The notes below the pieces were generated by a model. It had not been told where the DNA came from. It was given only the letters and a program-made list of their open reading frames with translations, and made no database searches. From NCBI GenBank assembly GCA_937942165.1, contig CALDFW010000088.1:1-40099 (forward strand): a DNA stretch of 40,099 nucleotides, written 5' to 3'. Numbering within the stretch: the stretch's first letter is position 1; every line of letters starts with the position of its first letter. Of this stretch, positions 2,699-19,747 are shown one piece after another. The position numbers were made by a program, and so were the translations under genes. This stretch comes from an uncultured bacterium (lineage in GTDB: Bacteria; Latescibacterota; UBA2968; UBA8231).

Positions 2699-2875
2699 GG
2701 TCGATTTACTTTCGCTAGGAGCCTGGGCAGACGTGGACAGTAAAATTGCGCAGCGGTTGTGCCGCGTTGCTGGCAAGAGATCCTCTGCGCGCTGCGCATG
2801 TGTCTTTCGACCTCAGGCAAAAAAGCACATATTCATCGGGCTGACAATCCCACGTACGAATCAGAGGAGCTATGT

Positions 2876-3889
2876 ATGGCTTATCACGTTTATATTTCAA
2901 ATGCCGCGAGCGCTTTTTTCTCCTATTTCATAATGGACGAAAGCAGCGGTCGTCTTCAGCCGCAGGTCGACATTCAACTGCCGGCCGAACCCGGTGCCGT
3001 AGCGGTCAGTCCCGATCAGTCGCATATGTTTGTCGCTCTGCGATCGGCCAAATATTTGGCGAGCTATCGCATTGATGCAGCGTCCGGTCAGCTTGCGCAG
3101 GTTTCTACCAGCGGACAGGAAGAGGGGCCACCCTATCTATACGTCGACAAGACGGGTCGCTTCCTGCTCTCTTCGTACTACGGCGGTGGAACCGTTAGCG
3201 TGCACGGTATCAACGATGACTACAGCCTTTCGTCCGAGCCGCTGCAGACGCTTGAAACGGACGGCCACGCGCACAGCATTCAAACGGATCGGGCCAACAA
3301 GTTTGCCTTCGTGCCACATACCAACCCCGCCAATGCGATCTATCAGTTTCGCTTTGAAGAGCGAACCGGGGTGCTGTCTCCCAATGACCCGCCGAAGGTC
3401 GAGCCGGAAACGCCCGAGGGCCCCCGTCACTTTGCGTTCCATCCGCATAAGGACCTGCTTTACTCGATTAACGAAAATGGAAGCACGGTGTCCGCTCATC
3501 GCTTTGACGCGCAAAACGGAACGCTGGAATCGTTTCAAGTGATTTCGACGCTTCCCGGCGGCCGCCCCGTCGAGGGCAATACCACGGCCGAGCTCGACAT
3601 CACGCCCGACGGTAAGTTTCTCTACGGATCGAACCGTGGCCACGATTCACTGGCGCTCTTTTCCATTGCAGAAGACGGAACGCTAGAGGCCCAAGGTCAC
3701 TTTCCCACAGAGAAAACGCCGCGCTTTTTTGCCATTGATCCGAGCGGCCGGTTTCTCTACTCGGTTGGGCAGGACTCGGGTGGCCTACAGTCGTATGCAA
3801 TCGACTCGTCGACCGGTGCGCTCGAGCCGTTAGAGCAGCACGAAGTGGGCGATAGCCCGCTGTGGATTACCTTTGTGAAAAAGCAGTAG
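2876..3889 (+). CDS. Lactonase family protein (6-phosphogluconolactonase-like seven-bladed propeller)
   Basis: The 337 residues are built of repeated beta-propeller blades, each of the type P-D-G-K-F-L-Y followed by S-x-x-x-x-G-x-L (for example T-P-D-G-K-F-L-Y-G-S-N-R-G and D-P-S-G-R-F-L-Y-S-V). Length and blade motifs fit the YbhE/lactonase family, which hydrolyses 6-phosphogluconolactone or related sugar lactones in the cytoplasm. There is no signal peptide. The ATG at 2876 has AGGAG at 2865-2869, six bases upstream. A longer frame from 2759 lacks this. The other ATG at 2872 is out of frame. It diverges from an enolase-superfamily gene, consistent with sugar-acid metabolism, and ends in a strong terminator. 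The exact lactone is not determinable, so no symbol is given. Confidence 0.85.
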   Translation: MAYHVYISNAASAFFSYFIMDESSGRLQPQVDIQLPAEPGAVAVSPDQSHMFVALRSAKYLASYRIDAASGQLAQVSTSGQEEGPPYLYVDKTGRFLLSSYYGGGTVSVHGINDDYSLSSEPLQTLETDGHAHSIQTDRANKFAFVPHTNPANAIYQFRFEERTGVLSPNDPPKVEPETPEGPRHFAFHPHKDLLYSINENGSTVSAHRFDAQNGTLESFQVISTLPGGRPVEGNTTAELDITPDGKFLYGSNRGHDSLALFSIAEDGTLEAQGHFPTEKTPRFFAIDPSGRFLYSVGQDSGGLQSYAIDSSTGALEPLEQHEVGDSPLWITFVKKQ

Positions 3890-3911
3890 AAAACCAGCGG
3901 TGGGGAAGGTG

Positions 3912-3948
3912 CGCCCTGTCGGCCCTTGGGCTGACAGGGCGTTTTTTT
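3912..3948 (+). terminator. Rho-independent terminator after the lactonase gene
   Basis: A 9-bp perfect stem, CGCCCTGTC (3912-3920) with GACAGGGCG (3933-3941), encloses a 12-nt spacer that can pair further and is followed by seven T. It lies 22 bases after the lactonase stop. The inner arms GCCCTGTC/GACAGGGC recur in the pdxS-pdxT hairpin. Confidence 0.85.
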
Positions 3949-3958
3949 CTATTAGAGC

Positions 3959-5065
3959 CTATGGACGGTCGTTGTCCAATCCAACGGCCTGTCCAATCGC
4001 CTCCAATCCATCGCGCTCGAGCAGACGGACGAGACCTCGGTTGATTTGCTGAACTAGCCCGGGTCCGCGGTAGACTAGCGCCGTGTAAATCTGCACGAGG
4101 GAAGCGCCGAGGCGGATCTTCTCGTAGGCGTCTTCAGCCGTGCGCACGCCCCCAGATCCTATGATGACGTGGCGCTGGCGGTCTATGTGGCGATACCAGA
4201 AGCGCAGCGCTTCGTTCATGCGATCTTGCGTGGGAGGACCGCAGAGCGTGCCCGGCATGGGGTCTACGACGTGGGCGGGCGAGCGCAGCGGATAGTTCGC
4301 GCCCGGCGGCAGATTAAAGATGAATCCCCTTACAAAGCTGCAGCCCTCTATGGCGCTGAGCGTATTTTCCATGCGGTGGCCGTCTGCGTGAGCCGTGAAC
4401 TTGAGAAAGACCGGTGGTAGATCTCGAATGCGTCCATACTCGACCATGAGAGTGCGCAGCACGTCCGGGGAGTCGAAGGGGCTGCTCCCTCCGGTCGTGT
4501 TGGGGCAGTTTAGGTTGAGCGTGACGTAGTCGACCTTGCTGCAAAAGGGACGTACAGCCTCGACAAATTCTTCTATAACGGCGTCATCCTCTAGCGCCTG
4601 TCCCGTATTGGTTTCGACTAGGTTAACGCCTAATGGACCGTCCGTGCTCCATTTATGCATGCGCTGCGATACGGCCTGTGCTCCTCCGTTGGGAACCCCG
4701 TAATTGACGATGATGGCCTCGTCCGCTGGAAGGCGGAAGAGACGCGGCTTGGCATTGCCAACGGAGGGATACGCCGACACGGATCCGACTTCGACGGAGC
4801 CGAAACCCAGCGCATCTAGGGCGCGAACGGCACGACCGTTTTTGTCAAAACCGGCCGCTAGGCCCAAGGGGTTCGCAAAGTGCAGTCCAGCCACCGTGCA
4901 GTGCAGGCTGGGGTGGTTGTATTTAAAGAGCGTGCGCAAGAGGATGCGCCCCACGTGCGTTGCGCCCAGCGCGGCGCCGGCATCCAGCGTCCGGTTGTGT
5001 ATCCACTCGGCGTCGCACGAAAAGAGCAGCGGTCGAACAAGGGTTCGGTATAAGTCCATTTCCAT
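3959..5065 (-). CDS. pyrD: Dihydroorotate dehydrogenase, class-2-like with an atypical active-site Cys
   Basis: A 368-residue flavoenzyme of pyrimidine synthesis, oxidizing dihydroorotate to orotate. The N-terminal helical extension (residues 1-50, L-Y-R-T-L-V-R-P-L-L-F) is the quinone/membrane element of class 2 enzymes. The FMN barrel has N-P-L-G-L-A-A-G-F-D-K-N-G (65-77), V-E-V-G-S-V (91-96), P-R-L-F-R-L (107-112) and I-I-G-S-G-G-V (301-307). The catalytic loop reads N-L-N-C-P-N-T (184-190). Cys187 sits where class 2 enzymes have Ser and class 1 enzymes have Cys. The later class 2 T-N-T motif is also absent (G-F-I-F-N-L-P-P-G at 247-255). Start is ATG 5065, or ATG 5059 two codons later. 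Its stop lies just beyond the lactonase terminator, convergent with that gene. Confidence 0.82.
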   Translation of the reverse strand: MEMDLYRTLVRPLLFSCDAEWIHNRTLDAGAALGATHVGRILLRTLFKYNHPSLHCTVAGLHFANPLGLAAGFDKNGRAVRALDALGFGSVEVGSVSAYPSVGNAKPRLFRLPADEAIIVNYGVPNGGAQAVSQRMHKWSTDGPLGVNLVETNTGQALEDDAVIEEFVEAVRPFCSKVDYVTLNLNCPNTTGGSSPFDSPDVLRTLMVEYGRIRDLPPVFLKFTAHADGHRMENTLSAIEGCSFVRGFIFNLPPGANYPLRSPAHVVDPMPGTLCGPPTQDRMNEALRFWYRHIDRQRHVIIGSGGVRTAEDAYEKIRLGASLVQIYTALVYRGPGLVQQINRGLVRLLERDGLEAIGQAVGLDNDRP

Positions 5066-5146
5066 AACCTATGCCGTTCGTTCGGGTTGCGCTACATTGC
5101 CGGGTCGAGATGCGCTATTTAGTATAACACGAGAAAGAGAGCGAGT

Positions 5147-6043
5147 ATGCTAGGACTCATTGGATTGGGCTTGGTGGGCACGGCGCTGTGCGAACGGTTT
5201 GTGCGGGCAGGATGGACCGTGTGTGGGTTTGACGTGGAGGGGGAAGCTAACGATCGCGCTCGACGGCTGGGTGCACACATAGCCGATTCGCCGGCAGACG
5301 TGGCGTCGCGTGCGCGTTTGACCGTGCTATCTCTTCCCAATTCGGACGTAGTGCAACGCGTGGTCGAAGGGGCTGACGGCATGATAGAAGGGCTGCGCAG
5401 CGGAGATTTACTGGTCGATACGACGACGGCTGATCCGCTGTCTACCACAGCCTTGGCAGAGCGCCTGCGGCAGCGCGGCGCGCGCTTTGTAGACGCGACA
5501 ATCCTCGGCTCGAGTCAGCAGGTGCTCGAAGGGGAAGTCTTGGTAATGGCCGGCGGAGAGGTGGATGACGTGCGCGATAGCGCCGACGTGCTCAACGCCT
5601 TCGCCCGTCAGACCTTTCACATGGGAACAAACGGCAAGGGAGCTGAGGCTAAGCTCGTCGTCAACTTGGTCCTCGGTCTCAATCGGTTGGTCCTTGCAGA
5701 GGGGTTGGTGCTGGGTGAACAAGCCGGCATTGATGCCAATGCGCTGCTCTCGGTGCTGCGCGCAGGGGCGGCCTATTCGCGTGCGATGGATCATAAGGGA
5801 CAGAAGATGATCGAGCGCGAGTTTGCGCCGCAGGCTCGTTTAGCCCAGCATGCAAAAGACGTCGAGTTGATGCGGGCTCTGGCCGCCCGCTGCGGCGCCG
5901 AGCTGCCGCTGAGTGCGGTGCATGCGCAGATCTTGCAGCGAGCTATCGCAGAAGATATGGGCGACTGGGACAATGCTGCCGTGGTTCAGGTGCTGCGCCT
6001 CATGGCGCAAGAGAGCGGTGAGCCTTCGGATGCGGCGCGGTAG
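5147..6043 (+). CDS. NAD(P)-dependent beta-hydroxyacid dehydrogenase (3-hydroxyisobutyrate dehydrogenase family)
   Basis: A 298-residue two-domain dehydrogenase. The Rossmann fold opens with G-L-I-G-L-G-L-V-G (residues 3-11), and L-P-N-S-D and D-T-T-T-A-D-P follow. The substrate loop is D-A-T-I-L-G-S (usually D-A-P-V-S-G), and the catalytic Lys is in G-K-G-A-E-A-K-L-V-V-N, followed by the all-alpha domain with H-A-K-D-V-E-L-M. Relatives oxidize 3-hydroxyisobutyrate, tartronate semialdehyde or L-serine-type substrates. The altered substrate loop makes the substrate uncertain. The ATG at 5147 follows a purine-rich tract (GAGAAAGAGAGCGAG). The FKBP gene starts 24 bases after its stop, so the two are probably co-transcribed. 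Confidence 0.85.
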   Translation: MLGLIGLGLVGTALCERFVRAGWTVCGFDVEGEANDRARRLGAHIADSPADVASRARLTVLSLPNSDVVQRVVEGADGMIEGLRSGDLLVDTTTADPLSTTALAERLRQRGARFVDATILGSSQQVLEGEVLVMAGGEVDDVRDSADVLNAFARQTFHMGTNGKGAEAKLVVNLVLGLNRLVLAEGLVLGEQAGIDANALLSVLRAGAAYSRAMDHKGQKMIEREFAPQARLAQHAKDVELMRALAARCGAELPLSAVHAQILQRAIAEDMGDWDNAAVVQVLRLMAQESGEPSDAAR

Positions 6044-6067: not shown

Positions 6068-6550
6068 ATGCATCCAGTATTAGCCTCTACGCTTATTCCA
6101 CTCGCAGCCGCACTGTGGGGCTGTGGAGATCCCTGCGCAGAGCAGGTCGATGCTGCATTCCTCGAAGCGGCCGCTGCCGTGCCTGGGGCCGTGCGCACGC
6201 CGTCTGGCTTGGTCTTTGAGGAGCTCAAGGCCGGTTTGGGCCCGAGTCCAGGACCCGCGGACAAGGTTTTTGTGCGCTACACTGGCATGCTTACCGACAG
6301 CACTGTATTTGACTATACGGCTACCTATCGCAGTCCGCGTAAAGTCTCTTTAGAAAAGGCGATCCCAGGGTGGGTAGAGGGGTTGCAGATGATGAAAAAT
6401 GGAGGGAAGGCAAAGCTGACGATTCCCCCGGCGCTGGCCTACGGTAAAAAGGGCAAAAAGTTCAATATTCCCGGCTGTGCGGTGCTGGTCTTTGAGATCG
6501 AACTGCTCGGCATAGAGTCGAACGTGGTCGAGCCGGAGCAGGACCGCTAG
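6068..6550 (+). CDS. FKBP-type peptidyl-prolyl cis-trans isomerase, putative lipoprotein
   Basis: A 160-residue protein with an export-like N-terminus and L-W-G-C (Cys19) resembling a lipobox. The n-region has no Lys or Arg and W is unusual before GC, so lipidation is uncertain. The FKBP domain spans ~60-150, with V-R-Y-T-G-M-L, the F-D motif (V-F-D-Y-T), V-S-L-E-K-A-I-P-G-W-V-E-G-L, K-L-T-I-P-P-A-L-A-Y-G and the closing V-F-E-I-E-L-L-G-I. It would speed prolyl isomerization of envelope proteins. GGGAG at 6056-6060, seven bases before ATG, supports the start. The C-terminus meets the convergent leucine-rich-like gene: the shared CTAG at 6547-6550 supplies both stops. Confidence 0.88.
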   Translation: MHPVLASTLIPLAAALWGCGDPCAEQVDAAFLEAAAAVPGAVRTPSGLVFEELKAGLGPSPGPADKVFVRYTGMLTDSTVFDYTATYRSPRKVSLEKAIPGWVEGLQMMKNGGKAKLTIPPALAYGKKGKKFNIPGCAVLVFEIELLGIESNVVEPEQDR

Positions 6551-7647
6551 TTCCCGTTATTTAAAATGGATACGTCGCTCTGCGCTACGCGTGCGGCGAG
6601 TTCTTCGACCTCAGCGGTCGGTAGACTCGGGTTGTCTACGACAAAGAAATTGCCTCCAACGCGCGCCAATGCGGCCAGTCCAGCTACGCTCTGAAGTCGA
6701 TCGTTGCCGTAGATGTTCATATCGCTTCCCACCTCTATCAGCGCATCTAATCCCTGTAGCTTGGTGAGCTTCTCATTGTCGTACACGTTGAGGTTGCCGC
6801 CTACGGTTTGCAGCGAGGAGAGGCCACTTACGCTGGTGAGTCGCTCGTTGCTGTAAATGCTTAAATGGCCGTTCACCCCGCTGAGGCGACTCATATCCTC
6901 TATGCGATCGAGGGTAGCGTTGCCGCCTATCCGCAGGTCGCCCCCCACCGACTCGAGTCCCGAGATATCCTCGATAATCTCCAGAGCAAAGTTGCTCTCG
7001 ATGACGAAGTCACCGCCGACTGTGGCTAGCTTGGAAAGATCCTCGATGAGTTCGACGGCGGGGTTAAACTCAATGCGCAGATGCCCCCCTACGCTCTCGA
7101 GGTTAAACAGATCTTCCACGTGAGCCAGTCGCGTATTGTTGTGAATGCGCACATCGCCCCCAACGCTGACCAGTTTCGACAGAGCGCCGATGTCCTGTAG
7201 CTTTTCGTTGTGGTGGATGTCCACGCTGCCGCTGACGGTTTGGATAAAGAGGCCTTCAATCGAAGTGAGCTCCTCGTTGTCGTATATGTAGACGTTTCCG
7301 CCAATCGTCGTTAGGTCTTCCAATCCATCAAAGCTCTTTAATTCCTCATTATTATAAATGCGCACGTCGCCGTTGACCGTGCTGAGGTCGGGCAGGCCGT
7401 CCAGCGTTTTTACCAATACTTCTGTTATTACTAGGTCACCTGCAATGGCATAGCTACATCCGCCGGCTCGCTCTAGGGCATCGATGTCAAGGACGGAGCG
7501 TATAATTACGTCGCCTGTGAGAATGCGCGTTTCGCAGCCGCCGCTATTCCCGTCAATGGAAGCGCCCTTTTGTCCGCCACAGCCCAAGGCTATTGCGGAT
7601 AAGAGCAGCCAACAAACGGGCCAACTCGCTCTGTGGAAAATACTCAT
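6547..7647 (-). CDS. Leucine-rich/receptor-L-domain-like repeat lipoprotein
   Basis: A 366-residue exported protein. The signal segment ends in A-L-G-C (Cys23), a good lipobox, so it is probably an anchored lipoprotein. Residues ~88-350 are eleven tandem units of 23-24 residues with the consensus L-x-T-V-G-G-D-V-x-I-Y-x-N-x-x-L-T-S-I-E-G-L. This is a beta-solenoid of the type annotated as receptor L-domain or bacterial leucine-rich repeat. A short less regular region with two Cys (38 and 64) comes first and may form a cap disulfide. No enzymatic motif is visible. A surface binding or adhesion role is an inference from the fold. The gene is convergent with the FKBP gene and shares its stop tetranucleotide. 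Confidence 0.8.
   Translation of the reverse strand: MSIFHRASWPVCWLLLSAIALGCGGQKGASIDGNSGGCETRILTGDVIIRSVLDIDALERAGGCSYAIAGDLVITEVLVKTLDGLPDLSTVNGDVRIYNNEELKSFDGLEDLTTIGGNVYIYDNEELTSIEGLFIQTVSGSVDIHHNEKLQDIGALSKLVSVGGDVRIHNNTRLAHVEDLFNLESVGGHLRIEFNPAVELIEDLSKLATVGGDFVIESNFALEIIEDISGLESVGGDLRIGGNATLDRIEDMSRLSGVNGHLSIYSNERLTSVSGLSSLQTVGGNLNVYDNEKLTKLQGLDALIEVGSDMNIYGNDRLQSVAGLAALARVGGNFFVVDNPSLPTAEVEELAARVAQSDVSILNNGN
6598..7386 (-). repeat. Eleven tandem 69-72 bp coding repeats (23-24 residue units)
   Basis: The DNA encodes eleven successive units, ten of 24 residues and one of 23, each carrying V-G/N-G-x-L/V-x-I-Y-x-N. The units differ enough at the nucleotide level to suggest old duplication followed by divergence. 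Confidence 0.75.
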
Positions 7648-7818: not shown

Positions 7819-8619
7819 ATGACCGGAAAGAGAGATACTGTGAACGAGTTTGCCGAGCGCTACGCGACGTCGGCTAGCGCGCCCAGCACCGAGCTGCGCC
7901 GACAGTATGAGGAGGAGGGATTTATCCTCCTCTCCGGTCTTATCGACGATGAGACTAGTCGTGCAGCCGCCGCACTCTTGGGCGAGCTGCCGGGGATGGA
8001 CGGCGATGCCGAGGCCATCGAGGCTCCCCACTTGTTTAACGAAGAGCGCGGTTTAGTAGAACACTACGCGCTGCGCGAACAGGTCCTACTAGACTGCTTT
8101 GGCTGCGCGTTTACAGAGATGACTCGCATGCTGTCCGATGGGACCGATCTGCACGCACCGCGGGCGGCGCAAACGCAGAACCTAATTTTGCAGGAGCGGG
8201 CATGGCAGCCGCCTGGTCCGCATATTGACGGTATCCCCAAAGTCAATCGTCACCGCACGTTTCCCGGCCCGTACGAGATTGCCTTTATAGCGTATTTGAG
8301 CGACGTAGAGCCGCGGGGAGGTGGCACGGTGGGATGGCCCCGTTCGCACCGCGCCGTGCGCGCTCTGGCCGAGTCTGACAGGGATCGTTATGCGTATCTG
8401 TATGATTTGAACCGGGCCATTGGCCAACTCGACTTGGAGTCGCCCGTCGAACTCTTGCCCAAGCGAGGTGATATCCTCTTCTTTCAGCACTTATGGGTTC
8501 ATGGAGCGCCGTTCAATACTCGACCGCAGCCGCGCCTAGCCCTGCGTCCACTCTGCGACTGTGCGGCGTGTAACGGGCGCTGGTACAAGCGAGATGGATG
8601 GAGTTTCTGGCAGCCGTAA
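7819..8619 (+). CDS. Phytanoyl-CoA dioxygenase (PhyH) family oxygenase 1
   Basis: A 266-residue Fe(II)/2-oxoglutarate dioxygenase of the PhyH family. The metal triad is H135-x-D137 (P-H-I-D-G) and H228 (L-W-V-H-G-A), with R239 or R243 as the 2-oxoglutarate anchor (R-P-Q-P-R-L-A-L-R). The N-terminal Y-E-E-E-G-F-I-L-L-S-G-L is the usual PhyH opening. Members hydroxylate diverse small molecules and bacterial substrates are mostly unknown. AGGGAG lies only two bases before ATG 7819. The in-frame GTG at 7840, preceded by GGAAAGAGAG, is an equally plausible start and would give 259 residues. A C-terminal Cys cluster (C-D-C-A-A-C, 246-251) is unusual. It opens the plus-strand cluster of oxygenases and isomerase-like proteins. 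Confidence 0.85.
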   Translation: MTGKRDTVNEFAERYATSASAPSTELRRQYEEEGFILLSGLIDDETSRAAAALLGELPGMDGDAEAIEAPHLFNEERGLVEHYALREQVLLDCFGCAFTEMTRMLSDGTDLHAPRAAQTQNLILQERAWQPPGPHIDGIPKVNRHRTFPGPYEIAFIAYLSDVEPRGGGTVGWPRSHRAVRALAESDRDRYAYLYDLNRAIGQLDLESPVELLPKRGDILFFQHLWVHGAPFNTRPQPRLALRPLCDCAACNGRWYKRDGWSFWQP

Positions 8620-8750
8620 CGGCTCTCTGCTAAAGGAGTACGGGGTGCCGAAGATGCGTCGTTAGACGGTAGCGTTTCCCCCGGTTATATTTTGGCCTCA
8701 GCAGAGGTATTCATACGCACAGTAGTGCACTGTAGAAGGGGGTAGCGAGT

Positions 8751-9503
8751 ATGGCCCATTTGACGCTTAAAGACAAAAGTTTCTTTAAGGAGAACGGATA
8801 TCTAATTAAGCGCGGCGTGCTAAGTAATGCACAGGTTCAAGCTGCGCGCGACGCGCTGTGGGACGGCATAGAAGCGGATCGCAATAAGCCCGAGACGTGG
8901 GTACAGGCCGGCCCGCGCGTGCCCTGTCCGGGCAGCCATCCTGCCATTCGTGCCACGGTGCAGGAATCGCCGGTTTTTTCCATGATGGAAGAGATGGTGG
9001 GGGTTGGTCAGCTCAACGGAGGGGGACCGGGTCCTCATCTGGTTTTTCCGTCTGGAGACGACGAGTGGACCGGGGCTAAGCACGGCCATTTGGACGGATA
9101 CTACACGCCCACCAACGGCGTGCCAGAGGGCACCGTGGGGTATATGACGATCAACGTGACCATCTACGTTGAACACATCGAACACCGAGGGGGCTGCTTT
9201 ACCGTGTTCCCCGGCACGCACCGGATGGCCCACGAATACTTTAAAACGCACTCGCTGCTTTCTGTGCAGGGGGGATCTTCAAATCGAATCTGGAGCGACG
9301 AGGAAATGCCCTCAGCGCTTGAGTTTGAAGGAGCACCGGGAGACGTGTGCTTCTGGCACGGTCAGATGGTTCACACGGGAAGCAAAAACGTCAATCGGAA
9401 TATTCGCATGGCGCTCATTGGGCGGTTTTCGCGCAAGGACAGCAACGACATTCGTTTTGAGACGCCGGACGATATGTGGGCAGACTGGGAGGGATTGCGG
9501 TAA
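8751..9503 (+). CDS. Phytanoyl-CoA dioxygenase (PhyH) family oxygenase 2
   Basis: A 250-residue PhyH oxygenase, clearly different from its neighbour. The iron triad is H113-x-D115 (G-H-L-D-G-Y-Y) and H208 (Q-M-V-H-T-G-S-K-N), with R219 or R216 for 2-oxoglutarate (N-R-N-I-R-M-A-L). F-F-K-E-N-G-Y-L-I-K-R-G-V-L near the start and G-G-C-F-T-V-F-P-G-T-H before the jelly-roll core are typical. AAGGGGG precedes ATG 8751 at a workable distance. Its TAA stop overlaps the ATG of the isomerase-like gene by one base (TAATG), so the two proteins are made together and may act on one substrate. The 131-base gap upstream holds only a possible -10 (TATATT, 8686-8691) and a short palindrome at 8719-8733. Confidence 0.88.
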   Translation: MAHLTLKDKSFFKENGYLIKRGVLSNAQVQAARDALWDGIEADRNKPETWVQAGPRVPCPGSHPAIRATVQESPVFSMMEEMVGVGQLNGGGPGPHLVFPSGDDEWTGAKHGHLDGYYTPTNGVPEGTVGYMTINVTIYVEHIEHRGGCFTVFPGTHRMAHEYFKTHSLLSVQGGSSNRIWSDEEMPSALEFEGAPGDVCFWHGQMVHTGSKNVNRNIRMALIGRFSRKDSNDIRFETPDDMWADWEGLR

Positions 9504-10273
9504 TGGATCTGGTATTTAGTCCGACAGCGTGTCCTGAGCTGGAGCTGCCACAGGTGCTGGAACTGGCTGCCGATAGCGGATTCAAACGCATCCAGCTGTT
9601 TCGCGACGCGACGGAAAGCAGCCCGGTGCACCCCAATACGTCTGTGCCGATGGTGCGCGAGCGCATTGCCGCCGCGGGCTTTTCTCTGGCTGGGTTGAAC
9701 ATCCGCAATCTCACGGGTCGCAAAGCCGACTCGGACGAGCACAACCTGCCCTATAATCTGCGTCAACTAGAGTGGGACATTCATCTTGGGCGTGCCCTGG
9801 GGCTGACGGAGTTTAATCTGAGCGGAGGCGCGCGAACGGACGAAGCGCAGGAAGACCTGATTGAGGGTACAAACGAGCTGTTGGAGCGCCTGCCGGGCGT
9901 CAGGCTCAACTTGGGTAATCAGCAGGGCAATTGCCTGCAGGGTCTGGCAGACTTCCAGGCGGTTTTACCCGCGTTGGACGAGCGCGCGCGCGTCTTGCTG
10001 AACACGGGCCATTTACTGACGGCAGGCGAAGATGTGCTGGCGTTTGCCGAAGCGTTTGTCAACCGGATCTCCGTGGTGCATTTGCGCGACCAACAGGGCG
10101 ATCGCCCCGTGCCTTTTGGCCAAGGCGACCTACCCTTCTCTGATCTCTTCTCGATTCTAAAAGGCGCACACTACGCCGGAGACTTTGTTGTAGAACTGGA
10201 AAGCGTCAATTGGGCATCCCCGTGTGACGCGCTGTCGGCAGCGCGTGCCTTTGTAGAAGAGGCCTGGAACTGA
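9503..10273 (+). CDS. Xylose-isomerase-like TIM-barrel protein with altered metal site
   Basis: A 256-residue protein of the sugar phosphate isomerase/epimerase (AP endonuclease 2-like) superfamily. The fold is recognisable from V-V-H-L-R-D (191-196), the G-Q-G-D-L-P-F loop (206-212) and F-V-V-E-L-E (228-233). Of the usual E/D/H/E metal ligands, the first is Gly138 (L-N-L-G-N) and the second is Asn167 (N-T-G-H instead of D-T-G-H). Only H193 and E231 are kept. The protein may therefore bind sugar without isomerizing it, or use a different chemistry. ATG 9503 shares a base with the PhyH stop, with GGGAGG at 9490-9495 upstream. An in-frame ATG at 9476 inside the PhyH gene is rejected as the start. 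Confidence 0.8.
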   Translation: MDLVFSPTACPELELPQVLELAADSGFKRIQLFRDATESSPVHPNTSVPMVRERIAAAGFSLAGLNIRNLTGRKADSDEHNLPYNLRQLEWDIHLGRALGLTEFNLSGGARTDEAQEDLIEGTNELLERLPGVRLNLGNQQGNCLQGLADFQAVLPALDERARVLLNTGHLLTAGEDVLAFAEAFVNRISVVHLRDQQGDRPVPFGQGDLPFSDLFSILKGAHYAGDFVVELESVNWASPCDALSAARAFVEEAWN

Positions 10274-10332
10274 GCGTGTGGCGCACTCCATAGAAAACGA
10301 TCCATTGTGCATTACTGCAGGAGACCACGAAT

Positions 10333-12222
10333 ATGAAGAAGATAGCGTTTACCGACTTTCGCACCTGGACACGAGATCGGTTTGTCGATGCACAGACGCG
10401 CCGCAGCGCTCGCTTGGCACCGACGTATCTCATCGCACATGAGAGCGGCGTCGAGGGAGGAATGCACGATGCGCTGAGTGCGGCCGAATGGTCGCGCGTT
10501 TGTTTTGATCTCTATTCGGGTGCGGTAAAAAGCGCCGAGCTACTTTTCTACGTGAACGCCTATGACGGCACGCGAGATACGCCCATGCAGGTGCTTGTTA
10601 ACGGCCATGCGCTCACCCACCGTCAAAACCGAGAGAAAATGCTGACCGGTGGCTGGGATCGAAAGCGCATCAACGCGCGCTACCTGCAGGAAGGTAGCAA
10701 CGAATTCGTCTTTTCTCATCACGGCAGATTACACTACGACCCGCATCAGGACGGTCACGCCGATGTGCGCGTTAGTCACAGCGGGAGAAGCTTTGATGGG
10801 GGTAAGAGCTGGCATGGGGACGCCCTGGGTCCCGGCCGCGATACGCGCGGTGAATATCTCGTGCGCCTGCGCATTAAAGGGCATCCGCCAGCGGGGCTAC
10901 TCACGTCGCCGACAATTGATGTGGCCGATCCGGACGGCAGCGGGTGCATCGCCCCGCAGATGGGACTGCGCAGAGTTGATCTGGCTGTGCAAGCGGACAC
11001 GCCGGCCGGAACGTCGATCGAGTTTGAGATGCGTTCGGGCTCCACGCCGGCTTTTGATCCGCGGGCGTGGACAGCTTGGTCAACAACGATGCGATTGGAA
11101 TGGCCGGGGCGCTTTGTCCAGTTTCGCGCCGTCCTGCGCACCGATTCTTCGGACGTTACGCCGGTTCTCAAAGGAGTGACGCTCGGGGTCGAGAGTAAGG
11201 AGAATGTCAAGAGCACAGCAGGCATGGAACTCGTTGAACTCGACCATCCCGAGCTCGCGTATAGCTCCTATCCGTTTGCCTATTTGGCGCCGCATGCGCG
11301 ACTCGATCGTCTGCGCAAGCAGCATCGGCTTGACGATGTGATCGCAGAGGGTTCCACAGAGTTAGAACAGCTGGCGCTGCTGCGGGATTGGGTGCACAGC
11401 CAGTGGTTGGGCTGGCAGTCGCAGAAGTATCCGTACTGCCCGCCCTGGGATCCGCTGGAAATACTCGAAACGACCAAGGGCGATTGGGGTTTTGGTATGT
11501 GCACGCACTATGGAGCGACCTTTGCCGGCTGTGCAAGCGCACTGGGCTGGGTGGCGCGCGTGCTTATTGTCGATCATCACTGCCTAGCGGAAGTGTGGAG
11601 CGAGCAGCTGCAGAAGTGGATTTTAGAAGATGCCGGTCCCTGTCGAGAATACGATGCGACCTACGAAATCGACGGCGTGCCAATAAATGCGCTTGAACTG
11701 CACGACGCCCTGCTGGCCGGCCAGCGCGACAAGATTATGTCGAACAAGCTGCCGCAAAATAGGCTTGACCCTATGGATCGCTACGTGGAGACGTTCTGCC
11801 GCTTTGGCATCCCCCTGCGCAACAATCATCTGACGCATGCAGAGCCGGCTGAACTGCGCCATGGAAACCGGCAGTATCACTACAACGGCTATCTGTGGTG
11901 GTCTGATCAGATTGATCCCACCTACTCAGAGTATTCTCTGCAGACGACGCGTCCGGCGGATTTTTACTGGTCTATTAACCAGACGCGCATATACCTGCAG
12001 GCAGCGGATCACAGCGGCGTTCTGCACGTCCTACTCGAGCATACGATGCCCAATTTCTCGCACTTTGCCGTGCAGGTCGACGGAGCAGAATGGCAGGAAC
12101 TGCGCGAAGTCGAGATGGAGTGGAAGCTGCAGCCTGGACCGAACCGGCTTGCGGTGCGTGCGGTCAACGTGTTTGGCAGAGAGGGCCGCACCTCCCACGC
12201 TGAAGTTGTCTGTGAGGGATGA
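10333..12222 (+). CDS. Large transglutaminase-fold protein of unknown function
   Basis: A 629-residue protein without signal peptide or membrane segment. A transglutaminase-like core lies at ~340-440: G-F-G-M-C390 starts a helix (T-H-Y-G-A-T-F-A-G-C-A-S-A-L-G), followed by H415/H416 (V-D-H-H-C-L-A-E-V-W) and D433 (K-W-I-L-E-D-A-G), a complete Cys-His-Asp triad by position. The first ~290 residues look like beta-sandwich domains, including a strand-rich part with R-F-V-Q-F-R-A-V-L-R-T-D ... T-P-V-L-K-G-V-T-L often seen next to carbohydrate-active domains. The C-terminal ~100 residues are again beta-rich. AGGAGA at 10319-10324 supports ATG 10333. A TIM-barrel gene starts two bases after the stop. 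Peptidase, amidase or transferase activity are all possible. Confidence 0.7.
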   Translation: MKKIAFTDFRTWTRDRFVDAQTRRSARLAPTYLIAHESGVEGGMHDALSAAEWSRVCFDLYSGAVKSAELLFYVNAYDGTRDTPMQVLVNGHALTHRQNREKMLTGGWDRKRINARYLQEGSNEFVFSHHGRLHYDPHQDGHADVRVSHSGRSFDGGKSWHGDALGPGRDTRGEYLVRLRIKGHPPAGLLTSPTIDVADPDGSGCIAPQMGLRRVDLAVQADTPAGTSIEFEMRSGSTPAFDPRAWTAWSTTMRLEWPGRFVQFRAVLRTDSSDVTPVLKGVTLGVESKENVKSTAGMELVELDHPELAYSSYPFAYLAPHARLDRLRKQHRLDDVIAEGSTELEQLALLRDWVHSQWLGWQSQKYPYCPPWDPLEILETTKGDWGFGMCTHYGATFAGCASALGWVARVLIVDHHCLAEVWSEQLQKWILEDAGPCREYDATYEIDGVPINALELHDALLAGQRDKIMSNKLPQNRLDPMDRYVETFCRFGIPLRNNHLTHAEPAELRHGNRQYHYNGYLWWSDQIDPTYSEYSLQTTRPADFYWSINQTRIYLQAADHSGVLHVLLEHTMPNFSHFAVQVDGAEWQELREVEMEWKLQPGPNRLAVRAVNVFGREGRTSHAEVVCEG

Positions 12223-12223
12223 T

Positions 12224-13051
12224 ATGCATCTTTCTATTTTTACAGATGAAGTGAGCCCCAATCCGCAGCGGGCCATGGCGCTAGCTGCTGCTTGGGACAT
12301 CCGTGCCGTTGAGGTGCGCAACCTGCCCGGTGGCCGCTTCCCGCGCGCTGCGGACGGCGAACTGGCCGAGTTTGGTCGGTGGGTTGAAGCGGCTGGACTG
12401 CGCGTGTCGGGCGTTTCTCCCGGCCTGTTTAAATGCGCATTGGACGATCCGCAGGTGCGTGAAGGTATCGACAGGCTGCTGCCGCGTTCGTGCGAATGGG
12501 CGCAGCGCTGGGGCACGAATTTAGTTTCTGTATTTGGTTTTTTTAGGGACGACGGCACGGTGCCAGAAGGAGTCATCGAGTACTTAGCGCAGATGGCTTC
12601 TATTGCGGCAGAGCACGGATGTCAGTTGGTCTTAGAGAACGAGGCCGTGTGCTGGGGCAACACGGGAAGAGAGGCGGCTGATATCGTGCGGCGGGTTGAT
12701 CAGCCCAACTTTTCTCTGCTGTGGGATCCCGGCAACTCAGCCCGTGCCGGTTCGCGCGACGCGTTCCCGGGTGAATACGCCGAGCTGCGCGATCTCGTCG
12801 AGCACGTGCACGTGAAAAATTTCCATTCGGACAGGGATGCGTGGTCTCTCATGGCCGACGGCATCGTTGACTGGGCCGGTCAGCTAGCCGCGCTGCAGGC
12901 CGATCAGTATGCGGGATATTTAGTAGTGGAAACGCACGTTAAGAAACGTCCACCGGGTCTGCAGATGCGCGATGGTCTGGACGGTTTGGAAAGCAATAGC
13001 TTGGACAACCTCGACTGCTTGCGCACCCATTTACAGCGTCTCGCTGATTGA
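12224..13051 (+). CDS. Sugar phosphate isomerase/epimerase (xylose-isomerase-like TIM barrel)
   Basis: A 275-residue TIM barrel with the canonical metal ligands of the family: E138 (L-V-L-E-N-E), D168 (L-L-W-D-P-G-N), H196 (H-V-H-V-K-N-F) and E236 (L-V-V-E-T-H). The N-terminus M-H-L-S-I-F-T-D-E-V-S is typical of the group. Family members epimerize or isomerize keto-sugars, inosose or hydroxypyruvate-type compounds. The substrate is not readable here. ATG 12224 lies just past the TGA of the transglutaminase-fold gene, whose last codons contain GAGGGA as a ribosome site. The same frame stays open back to 11837, but that part overlaps the upstream gene and does not resemble a protein. The stop overlaps the flippase start. 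Confidence 0.85.
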   Translation: MHLSIFTDEVSPNPQRAMALAAAWDIRAVEVRNLPGGRFPRAADGELAEFGRWVEAAGLRVSGVSPGLFKCALDDPQVREGIDRLLPRSCEWAQRWGTNLVSVFGFFRDDGTVPEGVIEYLAQMASIAAEHGCQLVLENEAVCWGNTGREAADIVRRVDQPNFSLLWDPGNSARAGSRDAFPGEYAELRDLVEHVHVKNFHSDRDAWSLMADGIVDWAGQLAALQADQYAGYLVVETHVKKRPPGLQMRDGLDGLESNSLDNLDCLRTHLQRLAD

Positions 13052-14481
13052 ACGCACCGTCTCTAGCCACGCGCGCGGTGCGCGGTTTTCTATGGAATGG
13101 CAGTGCCTCGCTCGTGCAACTGGTAACGATCGTCGCGCTCTATGCGCTGCTTGAGGTCGAAGAGCTGGGCAGCTTCGAATGGGGTCTCTCGCTGGTCATG
13201 CTCCTCGCCATTATCGGTGACTTGGGCCTAGGGGCTGCGCTCGTGCAGCGCCCCGACGCGGCCGATGCTCACTTTGATACGGCATTCTGGACAAATATTG
13301 TGTGGGGCCTGCTGTTGACGGGGCTAGTCATTCTGAGCGCCCCGGCCCTTGCAGGCGTATTGGGAGGCGAAGATCCCGTGCTCTTTGCGGGCGTTGTGCG
13401 CACGCTGTGCTGGCTGGTGCCGTTTGCCTCTGTCTCGGCCGTCTTTCGCGCTCGCCTACAGCGCGACCTCAACTTTTCTGCCGTTGCCCTTTCGGAAGTC
13501 GTTTCATCGTTCAGCTTTGCCCTCGTAGTCGTGGTGCTTCTTTGGATGCGTCCGGACTGGGGCGTCTACGTCCCGGTTGTGGCCTCGGTCTTTCGCGAAG
13601 TGGGCCTCCTTTGCAGTCTCTGGTATTCAACGCGCTGGCTGCCCGAGCGCCGCTGGCGCGCCGCTGCGCTGCGCGACCTGCTCCGCTTTGCGCTCAATTT
13701 TACCGGCGCCCGTTCGGTTGCCTACTTCAATACTAAAATCGCACACTTCTTTATTTTTCCACTGCTCGGGAGTGCTGCGCTGGGCTACTATGCGATCGCC
13801 GAACGGCTGACGTTGACGCCGCTGACGCGACTGGCTACCACCATTAATCGCGTTTCGTTTCCCGCATTTTCTACGATTCAAAACGACGATGCGTTGCTGC
13901 GCAGGGGATATATGCAGTCTGTGCAGAGCCTGTTGGTCAGCATGGGACCCTTACTGGCCGGCGTCTTTGTATTCGCGCCTGAGATACTGTCTTTGCTGGG
14001 CAAAGAGCCCGCGCGCAGCGCCCTGCGCCTCTTGGCCCTAGCCACGCTGTTTAAAGTGGTGGGGACTATGGTGGGATCGATGTTTATGGCCAAGGGACGC
14101 ACCGATTGGTCTCTGTACTGGTCGCTCTTTAGCGTTGTGGTATTGGTCCCTTCTATGTATTTGATCGGTATTCCTCGCGGTTTAATGGGCGTTACAGGCG
14201 TTATAGCCGCCTCTTCTCTGCTCTTTCTGCTACTTTCTCAGCAGCTGGCCAACCGGCTAATTGCGCTTCCGTTTCTCGAGTATGCGGGTCATTTACTGCG
14301 CCCGATATCCGTTGTCTCAATCGTGTTCGCCGTCCTGTGGTTGACGCGCCCTCTGCTGTCTGGCAGTTCGTCTTTCGTGCTCCTACAGGGGGCGATCTTG
14401 GGCGGGCTTACAACGCTATTTTCCCTGCGCCTGCTGGCCTGGGAACTGTGCTCAAGCTACTGGCGTCGCCTGCGCGGCTAG
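13048..14481 (+). CDS. Polysaccharide/lipid-linked oligosaccharide flippase (MOP superfamily, Wzx/PST type)
   Basis: A 477-residue integral membrane protein with about 12-14 hydrophobic segments. Family marks are G-F-L-W-N-G-S-A-S-L-V-Q-L-V near the N-terminus, I-G-D-L-G-L-G-A-A-L-V-Q-R and Y-Y-A-I-A-E-R-L-T-L-T-P-L in the middle. Such proteins move undecaprenyl-linked or other lipid-linked glycans across the inner membrane. The TTG at 13048 overlaps the upstream TGA (TTGA) with no clear ribosome site, pointing to coupled translation. A GTG at 13078 is the alternative start. No glycosyltransferase gene is adjacent, so the cargo is unknown. Its place at the end of the PhyH/isomerase cluster suggests, without proving, export of a product of that cluster. 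Confidence 0.85.
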   Translation: MNAPSLATRAVRGFLWNGSASLVQLVTIVALYALLEVEELGSFEWGLSLVMLLAIIGDLGLGAALVQRPDAADAHFDTAFWTNIVWGLLLTGLVILSAPALAGVLGGEDPVLFAGVVRTLCWLVPFASVSAVFRARLQRDLNFSAVALSEVVSSFSFALVVVVLLWMRPDWGVYVPVVASVFREVGLLCSLWYSTRWLPERRWRAAALRDLLRFALNFTGARSVAYFNTKIAHFFIFPLLGSAALGYYAIAERLTLTPLTRLATTINRVSFPAFSTIQNDDALLRRGYMQSVQSLLVSMGPLLAGVFVFAPEILSLLGKEPARSALRLLALATLFKVVGTMVGSMFMAKGRTDWSLYWSLFSVVVLVPSMYLIGIPRGLMGVTGVIAASSLLFLLLSQQLANRLIALPFLEYAGHLLRPISVVSIVFAVLWLTRPLLSGSSSFVLLQGAILGGLTTLFSLRLLAWELCSSYWRRLRG

Positions 14482-16236: not shown

Positions 16237-16833
16237 CTAAAAGTCGAACCGCACTTTGGCCGACAGGCGATTAATGCCGATCGAATCGTCAGCAAAGATA
16301 ATGTCGCGCTGCAGATGAAGACCCACGTGTAAGCGGTCGTTCAGTCCCACTTCAGCGCCTATGCCGGGCGCAAGAGCAAAGTAGCTGTCGCTGGCAGCAG
16401 GAGCGTAGATCTCGGCGTCAATGGCCAGGTAGTATGCAAAGGGACTCGCGTCAAAGACTGAGCGCGTTCCGGCCGATAGCAGATGGGCGTCTTGGTTGGC
16501 GATTCGCGCGTAGCCGACCTGAAAACCCAGCCAGTTCTCGATTTGATACCCAAGATACAGACCGGTAAATAGGTCCGTCTCTTCCGTTTCTAGGCCATTT
16601 TCATATTCTGTAGAAACGGTTGCCGAACCGAGATGTCCTTCGACGTAGAGTTGGCCCTCGCTGCGAAAGCGCCCGTAGCCGCCCCTGCCATACTCGCTGC
16701 CCTCAGGACCGTCGGTGCGTCCGGGCTCTGCGGCGTATAGGACCAGGCTGGGGGGGGGCGAGCGGCGACCTGAGTCGGCGGCCGAAGCCGCTGTAGCCAG
16801 TGCCAGCATCGCAATAGTTGTCCAGCGTAGCAT
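16237..16833 (-). CDS. Outer-membrane beta-barrel protein
   Basis: A 198-residue protein with a clear signal peptide (cleavage probably after A-A-S-A-A, ~19). About eight amphipathic strands follow (for example E-N-W-L-G-F-Q-V-G-Y-A-R-I and L-H-V-G-L-H-L-Q-R-D), and the end is K-V-R-F-D-F, whose terminal Phe and alternating pattern match the BAM recognition signal. An early Pro/Gly-rich segment (residues 24-58) precedes the barrel. It resembles small OmpA-like/OmpW-size barrels, but no specific family motif is seen. AAAGGAG shortly before ATG 16833 is a strong ribosome site. It is the last of four minus-strand envelope genes, 12 bases after the LpoB-like gene. Confidence 0.75.
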   Translation of the reverse strand: MLRWTTIAMLALATAASAADSGRRSPPPSLVLYAAEPGRTDGPEGSEYGRGGYGRFRSEGQLYVEGHLGSATVSTEYENGLETEETDLFTGLYLGYQIENWLGFQVGYARIANQDAHLLSAGTRSVFDASPFAYYLAIDAEIYAPAASDSYFALAPGIGAEVGLNDRLHVGLHLQRDIIFADDSIGINRLSAKVRFDF

Positions 16834-16845
16834 GACTTATCTCCT

Positions 16846-17442
16846 TTAAAAGCCGATACTCTGCTTTTTGAAGTGCTTGGTTATTTCCTTGTGGTCGGTC
16901 CACACAATTTCGGTTGTGGCAATGTCCGTCAATTCAAAGGTCGCCTTGTAGTAGACTACTTTCTGGCTACCGACTTGCTGTATGGTCGAAGTAATGACCC
17001 CGCCCATCATATAGCGGGCACCGCGCTGGTTGCCGGGTCCTTGGGCCTCGTCTTCGCGCACGTAACCCGACCCCTGATACTCATACTCTTCGGCGATTTC
17101 CTGCCGCGCCGTTTTGTCCAAGAAAGTGAACTTACCGCTCTGGATAAGTGCGGTTTTTACGTGGTCGTAGAGCGCCTGCATGTCGATGTGTTCAGACGTT
17201 CGATTGCGCGGCACTTCCAAGATGACGACCGGCTTCTCCACGGCGCGACCGTCGATCCAGCCTTCCATGGAACCGATCATCTTTTTGGCGACCAGCTGCA
17301 TGTCGTTCTGGTTCCACTTGTCGTCGAGCATGGAAATCTCATTGGGATCGCCATATTCTCCGCGGGTAAAGGCTCTGGGCCCGCCGCAGGCGCTTAGGAT
17401 GAAGGTCGCCGCTAAGGTTAGACCTAATGCCCATGTCTTCAT
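16846..17442 (-). CDS. LpoB-like lipoprotein (penicillin-binding protein activator family)
   Basis: A 198-residue lipoprotein with lipobox L-S-A-C (Cys19). The domain matches the LpoB family: D-M-Q-L-V-A-K-K-M (47-55), K-P-V-V-I-L-E-V-P-R-N-R-T-S-E-H-I-D, A-L-I-Q-S-G-K-F-T-F-L-D, A-R-Y-M-M-G-G-V-I and a closing V-W-T-D-H-K-E-I-T-K. In E. coli LpoB reaches through peptidoglycan to activate PBP1b. Homologues beside COG3014-type genes occur in many bacteria with unproven roles. AAGGAG lies close upstream of ATG 17442. There is no penicillin-binding protein gene nearby. It is third in the four-gene minus-strand unit, 27 bases from the upstream periplasmic-protein gene. Confidence 0.87.
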   Translation of the reverse strand: MKTWALGLTLAATFILSACGGPRAFTRGEYGDPNEISMLDDKWNQNDMQLVAKKMIGSMEGWIDGRAVEKPVVILEVPRNRTSEHIDMQALYDHVKTALIQSGKFTFLDKTARQEIAEEYEYQGSGYVREDEAQGPGNQRGARYMMGGVITSTIQQVGSQKVVYYKATFELTDIATTEIVWTDHKEITKHFKKQSIGF

Positions 17443-17469
17443 GTGTGTTCTCCTTATGCGTAGCGTGTT

Positions 17470-18309
17470 TTAGTCCCACTCGCACTGAAAGTTTGTCCGC
17501 TTCAAATGCCACTTATCGCTGAGCATTTGATCCTGTCGGTAGAGGGCCTGTAAGGCGCAGTAACTCTGCAGGGAGCTAGAGGGATAGGTGAAAGCGTATT
17601 CGCTGGCGGCTTCGCGCTCGCGCGCTGTAAGGTCGGCTGATCCGTAGATATTTGGTCGCGTCGAAGTAAAGACCAGCACCTTCTTTGGGCCGTAGGTCTT
17701 TAACGGCACGTCGGCGGCAAACGTCACGCGTCGAACCTGTTTAGGTAAGAGCAGGTCGCTGTTGTCCACCTGTCCGTCGCGCTGCCAGCGTCCGGCTAAA
17801 ATCTGCTGTAGGTTGCCTACGAAAACGCGTTCGCGCTGGCCGTCGGGCACGATTAGGTAGAGGTAGCCTTGGCGCGCTTGAGTGGAGAGGGGTTTGTTTC
17901 CGCCCAAGCCCTCAAAGTCCAGATGGACCGTCAGCTGCACCGAGCGGTTGGGAGAGAGAGCGTGTAGGGAAAGTGCCTGTAGCACGGCCTCCGATACTCC
18001 GGCTTCCTTGAGGTCGATCAGCGCGTCGACCGACGCATCGCAGGCGCAGCGTCGCTCCTCGAGCATTTTGATAATGGCGCCCTCGCTAAACTGGCTGGCG
18101 CTGAGCTTTTTTACGTCGTCTGGTCTCATCGGCAGCTGCTGGGAGCGTTCGTAGCGTTTGGGCAGCGCACCCCCATCCCAATCGACGATGTTGACGATCT
18201 GTCCTCGCGCTAGCGGATCCACGCCGCTGGCGGGCGTGCTCTGCTGTGCGGTAAGTGCCTGTGCGCCGATCAAGACGGTAAGCACTGCCGTAGCGATGTG
18301 TTTTTTCAT
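17470..18309 (-). CDS. Exported protein of unknown function in the LpoB-like/COG3014 unit
   Basis: A 279-residue protein with an Ala-rich signal peptide (cleavage near A-L-T-A-Q, ~21) and no lipobox, so probably soluble periplasmic. I do not recognise a family. A mixed region with R-R-C-A-C-D (~86-91) and a helical V-D-A-L-I-D-L-K-E-A-G-V-S-E part resembles short helical repeats that bind partners. A beta-rich middle (V-Q-L-T-V-H-L-D-F-E-G-L) follows. Cysteines at ~88 and ~90 and two near the end could form disulfides. GAGGAG sits before ATG 18309, and the upstream stop is only ten bases away. Its position implies that it works with the two lipoproteins. Confidence 0.75.
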   Translation of the reverse strand: MKKHIATAVLTVLIGAQALTAQQSTPASGVDPLARGQIVNIVDWDGGALPKRYERSQQLPMRPDDVKKLSASQFSEGAIIKMLEERRCACDASVDALIDLKEAGVSEAVLQALSLHALSPNRSVQLTVHLDFEGLGGNKPLSTQARQGYLYLIVPDGQRERVFVGNLQQILAGRWQRDGQVDNSDLLLPKQVRRVTFAADVPLKTYGPKKVLVFTSTRPNIYGSADLTAREREAASEYAFTYPSSSLQSYCALQALYRQDQMLSDKWHLKRTNFQCEWD

Positions 18310-18319
18310 GGTGTGCTCC

Positions 18320-19747
18320 TCAGTGAAAAACGCGCGTGCTCAAAAAGGTTTTGTTCCCTTCCGTTTGTTCAACGTGGGGAAGGGCCTGCGTGTGCACTAC
18401 TCGTCCCTGTGTATCTAAGACTTCGATGTGCCGTGATGCGGCATCGCCTCCCTTCGGAAGGCGCGCGATGTGAACGGCGCGCGGTAGCGACAGCCAACCG
18501 CGCGTATCCGCAGCCTCTGTTGCGTTGCCGAGTAGGCTGAATAGGCCACCGACTAATTCGCCGAGTCCTTTGTTGAATGCCCGATCGTCTTCGTCGTCCC
18601 CCGCATTTGCTATCGTTTTCTCTATGCTCTTAGACGCTAAATACTTGGCGGTTGCACGCGCAACGGTGCGCAGCAGGATGTGATCAAATTTTTGCTCCAA
18701 CGTGCGGCGCGCAATGATGTCTAGATCTTCGGCTAATACGCCCATGGCGCTGGTCTGGCTATCGCGTAGACGCACGGCTCCGAGGGGAGGCGAGGTGGTT
18801 TTGTAGTGGGGCAACGCCAGACTTAGCCAGTAGTCAACCGCATAGTCGTGGTATACGTAGTGGTTGTTGTAGCGATCTACTGCCCGTTCGGAGAGCGCCC
18901 AAATGGCGTCACCTCGATCGTCTTTAAGAATGGGAATACTCATTTCGTTTTGCTCTTTGCGCGGCACAAAGCCGCTCTCAACAAAGACGATTATTTCGCC
19001 ATTCGGCGGCAGTTTGATCTCCTCTGGGCGCAGGCGGTATCGTTCCGTATACAGCCGCACTTCGTCGCTATAGCCTAGCTTTTGAGCAACGCGCACCAGA
19101 TCGATAAGAAGCATGCGCGGCACGCTGGTGCCAAATGCCTCTCTGTATGCACGATAGCCTTTTTCGGCATCTTTATACGATATGTAGGCATCGTTCCACT
19201 CGCCTTCGCTGTCGAAGAAGAGGCCCGTTACATATTGCATAAAAGCATCGTTTTTGTAGCTCAGCTCGTACTCGGACTGCTGGGCGTAGGATGCGAGTTT
19301 GAGATTGGCTTTGCGGCATTCGACCAGTACGGCCTGACGATCGCCCAGTCGTTCGTAATTTAACGCGCGGAAATAGTGAATGAATACGCGCTCAAACTCT
19401 TCGCCGCGATAGGCGACAATTGCATCGTTGGTCAAGAAGGCTGCGGCTTCGCGCGAGACGGACCGGGTGTATAGGCGGTCAATGAGGCGTTCGGCGCGCT
19501 CAAATTCTGCGTTGGATTGGGCATACAGACCTTGGTAGTGAAATATGAGCCCGCGCTCCAAGCGATAGAGCAGCATATTGGTCTTGCCGTTGGGCTTTTC
19601 TAGCCGGTCCAGCGCATCGACGTAGTTTCCCTGTCGCAGCTGGCTGAGCGAACGCGAAACGTAGCTAGAATAGCTGGCCGCGCAGCCGCTGAGAGAGAGA
19701 AGAAGCGCACTGCAAATGGCGATGCGCAATGATAGTAGGCTTCTCAT
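18320..19747 (-). CDS. COG3014-type TPR-like lipoprotein
   Basis: A 475-residue lipoprotein with lipobox L-S-G-C (Cys22). Residues ~30-240 are helical hairpins of tetratricopeptide type (L-R-Q-G-N-Y-V-D-A-L-D-R-L, F-H-Y-Q-G-L-Y-A-Q-S-N-A-E-F, Y-F-R-A-L-N-Y-E-R-L-G-D). From ~250 a beta-containing part starts with N-G-E-I-I-V-F-V-E-S-G, and the C-terminal portion has R-G-W-L-S-L-P-R-A-V-H-I-A-R-L-P, all as in the COG3014 family. These proteins are commonly encoded beside LpoB-like lipoproteins, with no established function. It heads the minus-strand envelope unit. The ribosome site is weak: GGGAG lies 12 bases before ATG 19747. Confidence 0.82.
   Translation of the reverse strand: MRSLLSLRIAICSALLLSLSGCAASYSSYVSRSLSQLRQGNYVDALDRLEKPNGKTNMLLYRLERGLIFHYQGLYAQSNAEFERAERLIDRLYTRSVSREAAAFLTNDAIVAYRGEEFERVFIHYFRALNYERLGDRQAVLVECRKANLKLASYAQQSEYELSYKNDAFMQYVTGLFFDSEGEWNDAYISYKDAEKGYRAYREAFGTSVPRMLLIDLVRVAQKLGYSDEVRLYTERYRLRPEEIKLPPNGEIIVFVESGFVPRKEQNEMSIPILKDDRGDAIWALSERAVDRYNNHYVYHDYAVDYWLSLALPHYKTTSPPLGAVRLRDSQTSAMGVLAEDLDIIARRTLEQKFDHILLRTVARATAKYLASKSIEKTIANAGDDEDDRAFNKGLGELVGGLFSLLGNATEAADTRGWLSLPRAVHIARLPKGGDAASRHIEVLDTQGRVVHTQALPHVEQTEGNKTFLSTRVFH

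Follow-up and report, generated by a model that had tools for sequence, protein, structure and literature searches.

PhyH-family enzymes such as the PHYHD1/FJS demethylases, with one from Poribacteria among those studied, can demethylate 2'-O-methyl nucleosides (PMC12709175). A study of Poribacteria reported an expansion of the PhyH family in which most members had no assignable function (PMC3909097). We analysed a window of 40,099 nucleotides (contig CALDFW010000088.1, assembly GCA_937942165.1) from an uncultured bacterium of the Latescibacterota. A first-pass annotation of this window had noted six adjacent plus-strand genes, among them two PhyH oxygenases and two xylose-isomerase-like (XI-like) TIM barrels, and had proposed that they form one pathway. 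Our comparison with related genomes indicates, with moderate confidence, that PhyH2 and TIM1 alone, and not all six genes, make up the functional unit, and that this pair acts together on an anionic small molecule. On this reading, local genome history has brought the transglutaminase-fold (TG) protein, TIM2 with the flippase, and PhyH1 into their vicinity. The features of the locus are as follows.

7819..8619, plus strand: PhyH1, Fe(II)/2-oxoglutarate (2OG)-oxygenase-like, with visible HID and H..R motifs
8751..9503, plus strand: PhyH2, Fe(II)/2OG oxygenase of the PhyH family
9501..9505, plus strand: TAATG stop/start overlap of PhyH2 and TIM1, sharing 1 nt at 9503
9503..10273, plus strand: TIM1, xylose-isomerase-like TIM barrel with an altered metal site and a beta3 loop at residues 66-94
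10333..12222, plus strand: TG protein, TG core C390-H416-D433
12224..13051, plus strand: TIM2, xylose-isomerase-like TIM barrel with E138, D168, H194/H196 and E236
13048..14481, plus strand: flippase of the MOP superfamily, polysaccharide type, TTG start, PF13440

A full-length PhyH2 lies immediately upstream of TIM1 on the same strand in 23 of the 37 genomes that carry a TIM1 relative, and this adjacency spans three families. PhyH2 is truncated beside TIM1 in three genomes (G001, G045, G046) and inverted, 65 bp from TIM1, in one (G025). Eight genomes, all of genus g9, have TIM1 alone together with a separate, diverged PhyH2-TIM1 pair (in G030 at a distance of 1.5 kb). The last two, G027 and G031, have TIM1 without PhyH2, the G031 locus being at a contig edge. 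Across GTDB, PhyH2 was next door in 27 of 33 TIM1 loci. The exact 1-nt stop/start overlap was found in 14 of 24 loci (the window and 13 of the 23 others), and an overlap of any length in 18, four of which have longer ones. The genes flanking the pair differ from family to family. The PhyH2 and TIM1 trees had 8 of 21 splits in common, compared with 0.2 under random pairing. The two genes coexist beyond local synteny, with adjacency, orientation and overlap retained, and the overlap points to translational coupling.

Nearly all TIM1 relatives in GTDB come from metagenome-assembled genomes (MAGs) labelled Latescibacterota or carrying older 'Gemmatimonadetes' names, and the latter look like the same lineage. 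Judged by record titles, the samples came from marine sites, sponges, lakes and groundwater. In the TIM1 tree, the copies of family f4 (G038, G040) nest inside genus g7 with an SH-aLRT value of 94, and this one quick tree hints that TIM1, perhaps with its partner, moved between families. Long open reading frames (ORFs) in L099 and L101 were considered as PhyH2-TIM1 fusions and rejected, the TIM1 frame being merely open upstream into PhyH2. TIM1-like matches in Armatimonadota (L162, L163; 29%) were not counted, as no PhyH was recognised adjacent to them and the TIM1 motif was absent. A literature search that covered few subscription papers yielded no description of the PhyH2-TIM1 pair and, within the same coverage, nothing specific on PhyH in Latescibacterota; the words phytanoyl, isomerase and transglutaminase do not occur in the text of a paper on sponge Latescibacterota (PMC12993501).

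PhyH2 matched the Pfam family PF05721 with an E-value of 1.1e-12 and 49.2 bits (gathering cut-off 22). The Fe(II) triad H113, D115 and H208 and the 2OG-binding arginine R219 are conserved in an alignment of 24 sequences, and by these residues the active site is intact as that of an Fe(II)/2OG oxygenase.

TIM1 matched PF01261 with an E-value of 5e-21 and 75.9 bits (cut-off 31.1). Its AlphaFold2 model is an XI-like barrel with a pLDDT of 94, closest to UlaE (TM-score 0.82) and then to Art22 (about 0.8). In a profile alignment, the metal-site Glu of UlaE aligns with G138 of TIM1. In UlaE that Glu binds the metal, and in DTE-type epimerases it is one of the two catalytic Glu residues. All 29 TIM1 orthologues have Gly or Ser at position 138. 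Asp167, His193 and Glu231 are kept in most orthologues, the window's own protein having Asn167, and in several genera one or more of the Asp, the His and the last Glu are lost as well. TIM1 lacks the complete Glu-Asp-His-Glu ligand set of UlaE/DTE-type metal-dependent epimerases. Since the first metal Glu is replaced throughout, a two-Glu epimerase mechanism is unlikely. The best conserved part of TIM1 is residues 66-94, in which R68, N85, Q88 and D92 are invariant and the beta3-loop motif IRNLTGRKADSDERN..YNLRQ.EWD.H is almost invariant. Segment 61-130 has 51-76% identity to the window protein, compared with 31-48% in the C-terminal half. The Arg/Lys-rich pocket suggests an anionic ligand.

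We propose that TIM1 would be translated from the same message as PhyH2 by way of the stop/start overlap. PhyH2 would hydroxylate or oxidatively demethylate a small anionic compound, sugar-acid- or cyclitol-like, and TIM1 would bind the product and perform the following step, either one-base or hydrolytic. The strongest conservation of TIM1 appears to have shifted from the broken two-glutamate epimerase site to the Arg/Lys-rich beta3 loop. The data show the conserved coupling, the intact oxygenase motif, the altered TIM1 site and that the other genes are separable; we infer the shared substrate, the reaction type and the direction of the pathway. Several observations weigh against this proposal. 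The correlation between PhyH2 and TIM1 tree distances is modest (0.39). TIM1 occurs without PhyH2 in six GTDB loci, all of one genus, and in G045 and G046 the TIM1 is intact although the PhyH2 next to it has decayed; TIM1 can thus persist without PhyH2. TIM1 may also still be a metal enzyme, because three of the four canonical ligands remain in most TIM1 proteins. A bolder form of the proposal, which we regard as tentative and rather doubtful, is that PhyH2-TIM1 is an undescribed two-component oxygenase of Latescibacterota in which the sugar-epimerase barrel of TIM1 lost its metal chemistry and its beta3 loop became a novel site for catalysis or binding, either acting on the oxygenase substrate or presenting it. 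PhyH genes are greatly expanded in Latescibacterota, with about 150 per genome in this analysis, as was reported for Poribacteria, and nearly all are without a substrate. PhyH2 with its coupled partner is a far better entry point than the other PhyH genes, because both can be expressed and tested together.

The pair could also reflect nothing functional, only shared ancestry in a lineage where abundant PhyH and XI-like genes meet by chance. The window belongs to a MAG of 3.46 Mb and 74% completeness with 109 PhyH and 31 XI-like matches, and two near-complete relatives have 149 and 59 (G018) and 153 and 59 (G030). When these families were spread randomly over about 3,450 genes (our estimate of the gene number), 2.0 XI-like genes adjoining PhyH were expected and 3 were observed in the window's genome; 33% of shuffles gave at least three such adjacencies. 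A six-gene stretch with two PhyH and two XI-like genes arose in about 1.4% of shuffled gene orders, a figure from a post hoc test. Adjacency alone was rejected as evidence for a pathway, as it is at chance level and carries no such meaning in genomes so rich in both families; the test must therefore be conservation in orthologues. In favour of this explanation, synteny in the region extends to unrelated genes (OmpA-like, LpoB and PdxST). However, the PhyH2-TIM1 pair and its conserved overlap persist across families where all other neighbours are different, and we consider the explanation by chance unlikely. We give a similarly low probability to a role of TIM1 without catalysis, in which a one-time sugar epimerase now serves PhyH2 as a subunit or as a substrate-presenting scaffold. 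The loss of the first metal Glu throughout, and the further ligand losses in genera that nevertheless keep segment 61-130, would fit such a role. However, most orthologues retain the other three ligand positions, and a pure subunit would not explain the genus in which TIM1 stands without PhyH2.

The remaining alternative is the broader pathway: in genera g1 and g7 at least, PhyH2, TIM1, the TG protein, TIM2 and the flippase would make or modify a glycan-like compound and then export it. PhyH2, TIM1, TG and flippase genes are neighbours in both genera, and the window and g7 share the order PhyH2-TIM1-TG-(TIM2)-flippase-PdxS-PdxT, with an insert after TIM1 in some genomes. In G022 (L046:1180-3710), a 3' remnant of TIM1 lies beside TG and an inserted gene separates it from the intact TIM1, which indicates that the TIM1-TG adjacency predates the insert there. 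Against this, inserts of up to 5.4 kb part TIM1 from TG in several genomes, and inserts similar to that of G022 do so at loci L034 and L039. A TIM2 match at E ≤ 1e-15 was not found in seven g7 genomes (G016, G018, G020-G024), which keep PhyH2, TIM1, TG and flippase. In two genomes, G001 and G012, the TG orthologue lies outside the cluster, which in G012 reads PhyH2-TIM1-TIM2-flippase-PdxS-PdxT. The flippase is equally tied to the pyridoxal phosphate synthase genes PdxS/PdxT. Because TG is displaced, TIM2 is absent in seven genomes and PhyH1 is missing from orthologous loci, the obligate six-gene sequence of oxidation, isomerisation, acyl chemistry and export put forward by the first-pass annotation is not supported; the set does not co-occur elsewhere. 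The gene-neighbourhood comparison that it had suggested gave a split answer and backs a single pathway at best in part: PhyH2-TIM1 is robust and TIM2-flippase holds within one family, whereas TG stands elsewhere beside different genes and TG, TIM2 and PhyH1 are separable. We think the broader pathway improbable and favour the PhyH2-TIM1 pair. Naming its substrate from the neighbouring genes was tried and rejected, as the neighbourhoods in f3 (spermidine synthesis), g7 (UbiD, amidase, UxuA-like) and g5 disagree.

All six ORFs are present in the window, and the tight junctions noted earlier were confirmed: besides the 1-nt PhyH2/TIM1 overlap, there is a one-base gap between TG and TIM2 and a 4-nt overlap (TTGA) between TIM2 and the flippase. 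PhyH1 is separated from PhyH2 by 131 nt, and TIM1 from TG by 59 nt. The starts at 9503 (TIM1), 12224 (TIM2) and 13048 (TTG, flippase) are backed by overlaps or orthologues. Promoter and terminator scans of the locus gave counts barely exceeding those of shuffles, and a clear operon boundary was not found. The family memberships read from motifs held above the Pfam cut-offs for PhyH2, TIM1, TIM2 and the flippase; PhyH1 and the TG protein score below them with their motifs intact.

PhyH1 reached 18.9 bits against the PhyH cut-off of 22. Its closest orthologues, at 64-65%, are two copies in G006 and one match in G019, all at other loci, and PhyH1 was not seen in the orthologous neighbourhoods, being at this locus in the window only. 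PhyH1 is probably a lineage-specific insertion outside the module. Genus g9 has a conserved cluster of six PhyH-type genes (L103:3900-18300 of G030, L104, L105), three of which were typed through Pfam and the other three by homology, two as PhyH2-like and one as PhyH1-like. The cluster also contains two SGSH-type sulfatases, a BD-FAE esterase, a 3-hydroxyisobutyrate-dehydrogenase-like protein and a cupin, and it looks like a system for the catabolism of sulfated compounds through several 2OG oxygenases. A GmrSD-type restriction enzyme gene lies inside it (L103:7292-8995; also in L105).

The TG protein scored 20.4 bits for Transglut_core (PF01841), below the gathering cut-off of 23. Its Cys390-His416-Asp433 triad is invariant in 21 relatives. 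In the model (pLDDT 84), the TG core is flanked by beta domains on its N-terminal side and by one on its C-terminal side; the fold matches TG2/TG3, and a profile match was obtained to the peptide N-glycanase 2F4M (5e-6). By triad and fold, it is a member of the transglutaminase-like superfamily. Orthologues with at least 57% identity occur in 13 genomes of family f1. TG adjoins the flippase in ten genomes of genera g1 and g7, the only two genera in which it lies between PhyH2-TIM1 and the flippase. Distant homologues adjoin MreBC genes (mreB recognised by eye) and AXE1 acetyl-xylan esterases. The TG protein belongs to a well-defined family that is multi-copy in this phylum and is not especially linked to PhyH or TIM1. 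Genomes of family f6 (G048, G052, G056, G059) have approximately 18-22 TG-protein matches each, several of them in tandem on one contig.

TIM2 matched PF01261 with an E-value of 1.5e-28 and 100.6 bits (cut-off 31.1), and E138, D168, H194/H196 and E236, the four-ligand set of XI-like enzymes, are invariant in 16 sequences. The flippase matched PF13440 (1.2e-50) and the PRK10459 and TuaB models; in the window, no glycosyltransferase was recognised among the genes next to it. The linkage TIM2-flippase-PdxS-PdxT is confined to the window's family (f1) and occurs without TG in G003, G004, G007, G008, G014, G017 and G001. In family f4 (L115, L117, L120, L122), a TIM2 homologue lies in a different, catabolic-looking conserved cluster with another PhyH, two isochorismatase-like hydrolases, a GFO/IDH/MocA oxidoreductase and an M20 peptidase, and at one locus only with a PfkB-like kinase (by eye).

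Upstream in the window, positions 1454-6043 carry enolase-superfamily dehydratase-like, 6-phosphogluconolactonase-like and 3-hydroxyisobutyrate-dehydrogenase-like genes. They suggest sugar-acid metabolism and were not seen at orthologous loci. Directly upstream of PhyH1, the product of a minus-strand gene (6547-7647) contains Receptor L domains (PF01030, 7e-17) and is probably a lipoprotein. Downstream, an inverted block at 16237-19747 holds OmpA-like and LpoB genes and two unassigned proteins; several genera of the window's family keep this block in synteny, downstream of PdxST. A myo-inositol-1-phosphate synthase gene (PF07994, 5e-105) lies at 26646-27959.

Compared with known systems, the TG protein has the same Cys-His-Asp triad as transglutaminases and peptide:N-glycanases, whereas its multi-domain architecture differs (whole-chain TM-scores 0.16-0.19). 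The flippase is below the NCBIfam equivalog cut-offs for the Wzx/TuaB/WzxC flippases of the MOP superfamily, and here PdxS follows it at orthologous loci. The mass expansion of PhyH in the Latescibacterota genomes is similar in kind to that of Poribacteria. PhyH2 shares the H-x-D...H and Arg motif with human phytanoyl-CoA dioxygenase (2A1X) and SnoK (5EPA), but it is only distantly similar to these solved members in sequence, and the literature that could be searched describes no PhyH member coupled to a TIM barrel by a stop/start overlap. TIM1 has its fold and PF01261 in common with UlaE, Art22, IolE, IolI and D-tagatose 3-epimerase, but it differs from these XI-like epimerases and isomerases by the Gly/Ser at the first metal/catalytic Glu and by a longer conserved beta3 loop. 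With the classical epimerase site broken and another site strongly constrained, TIM1 offers a testable case of active-site relocation among these enzymes.

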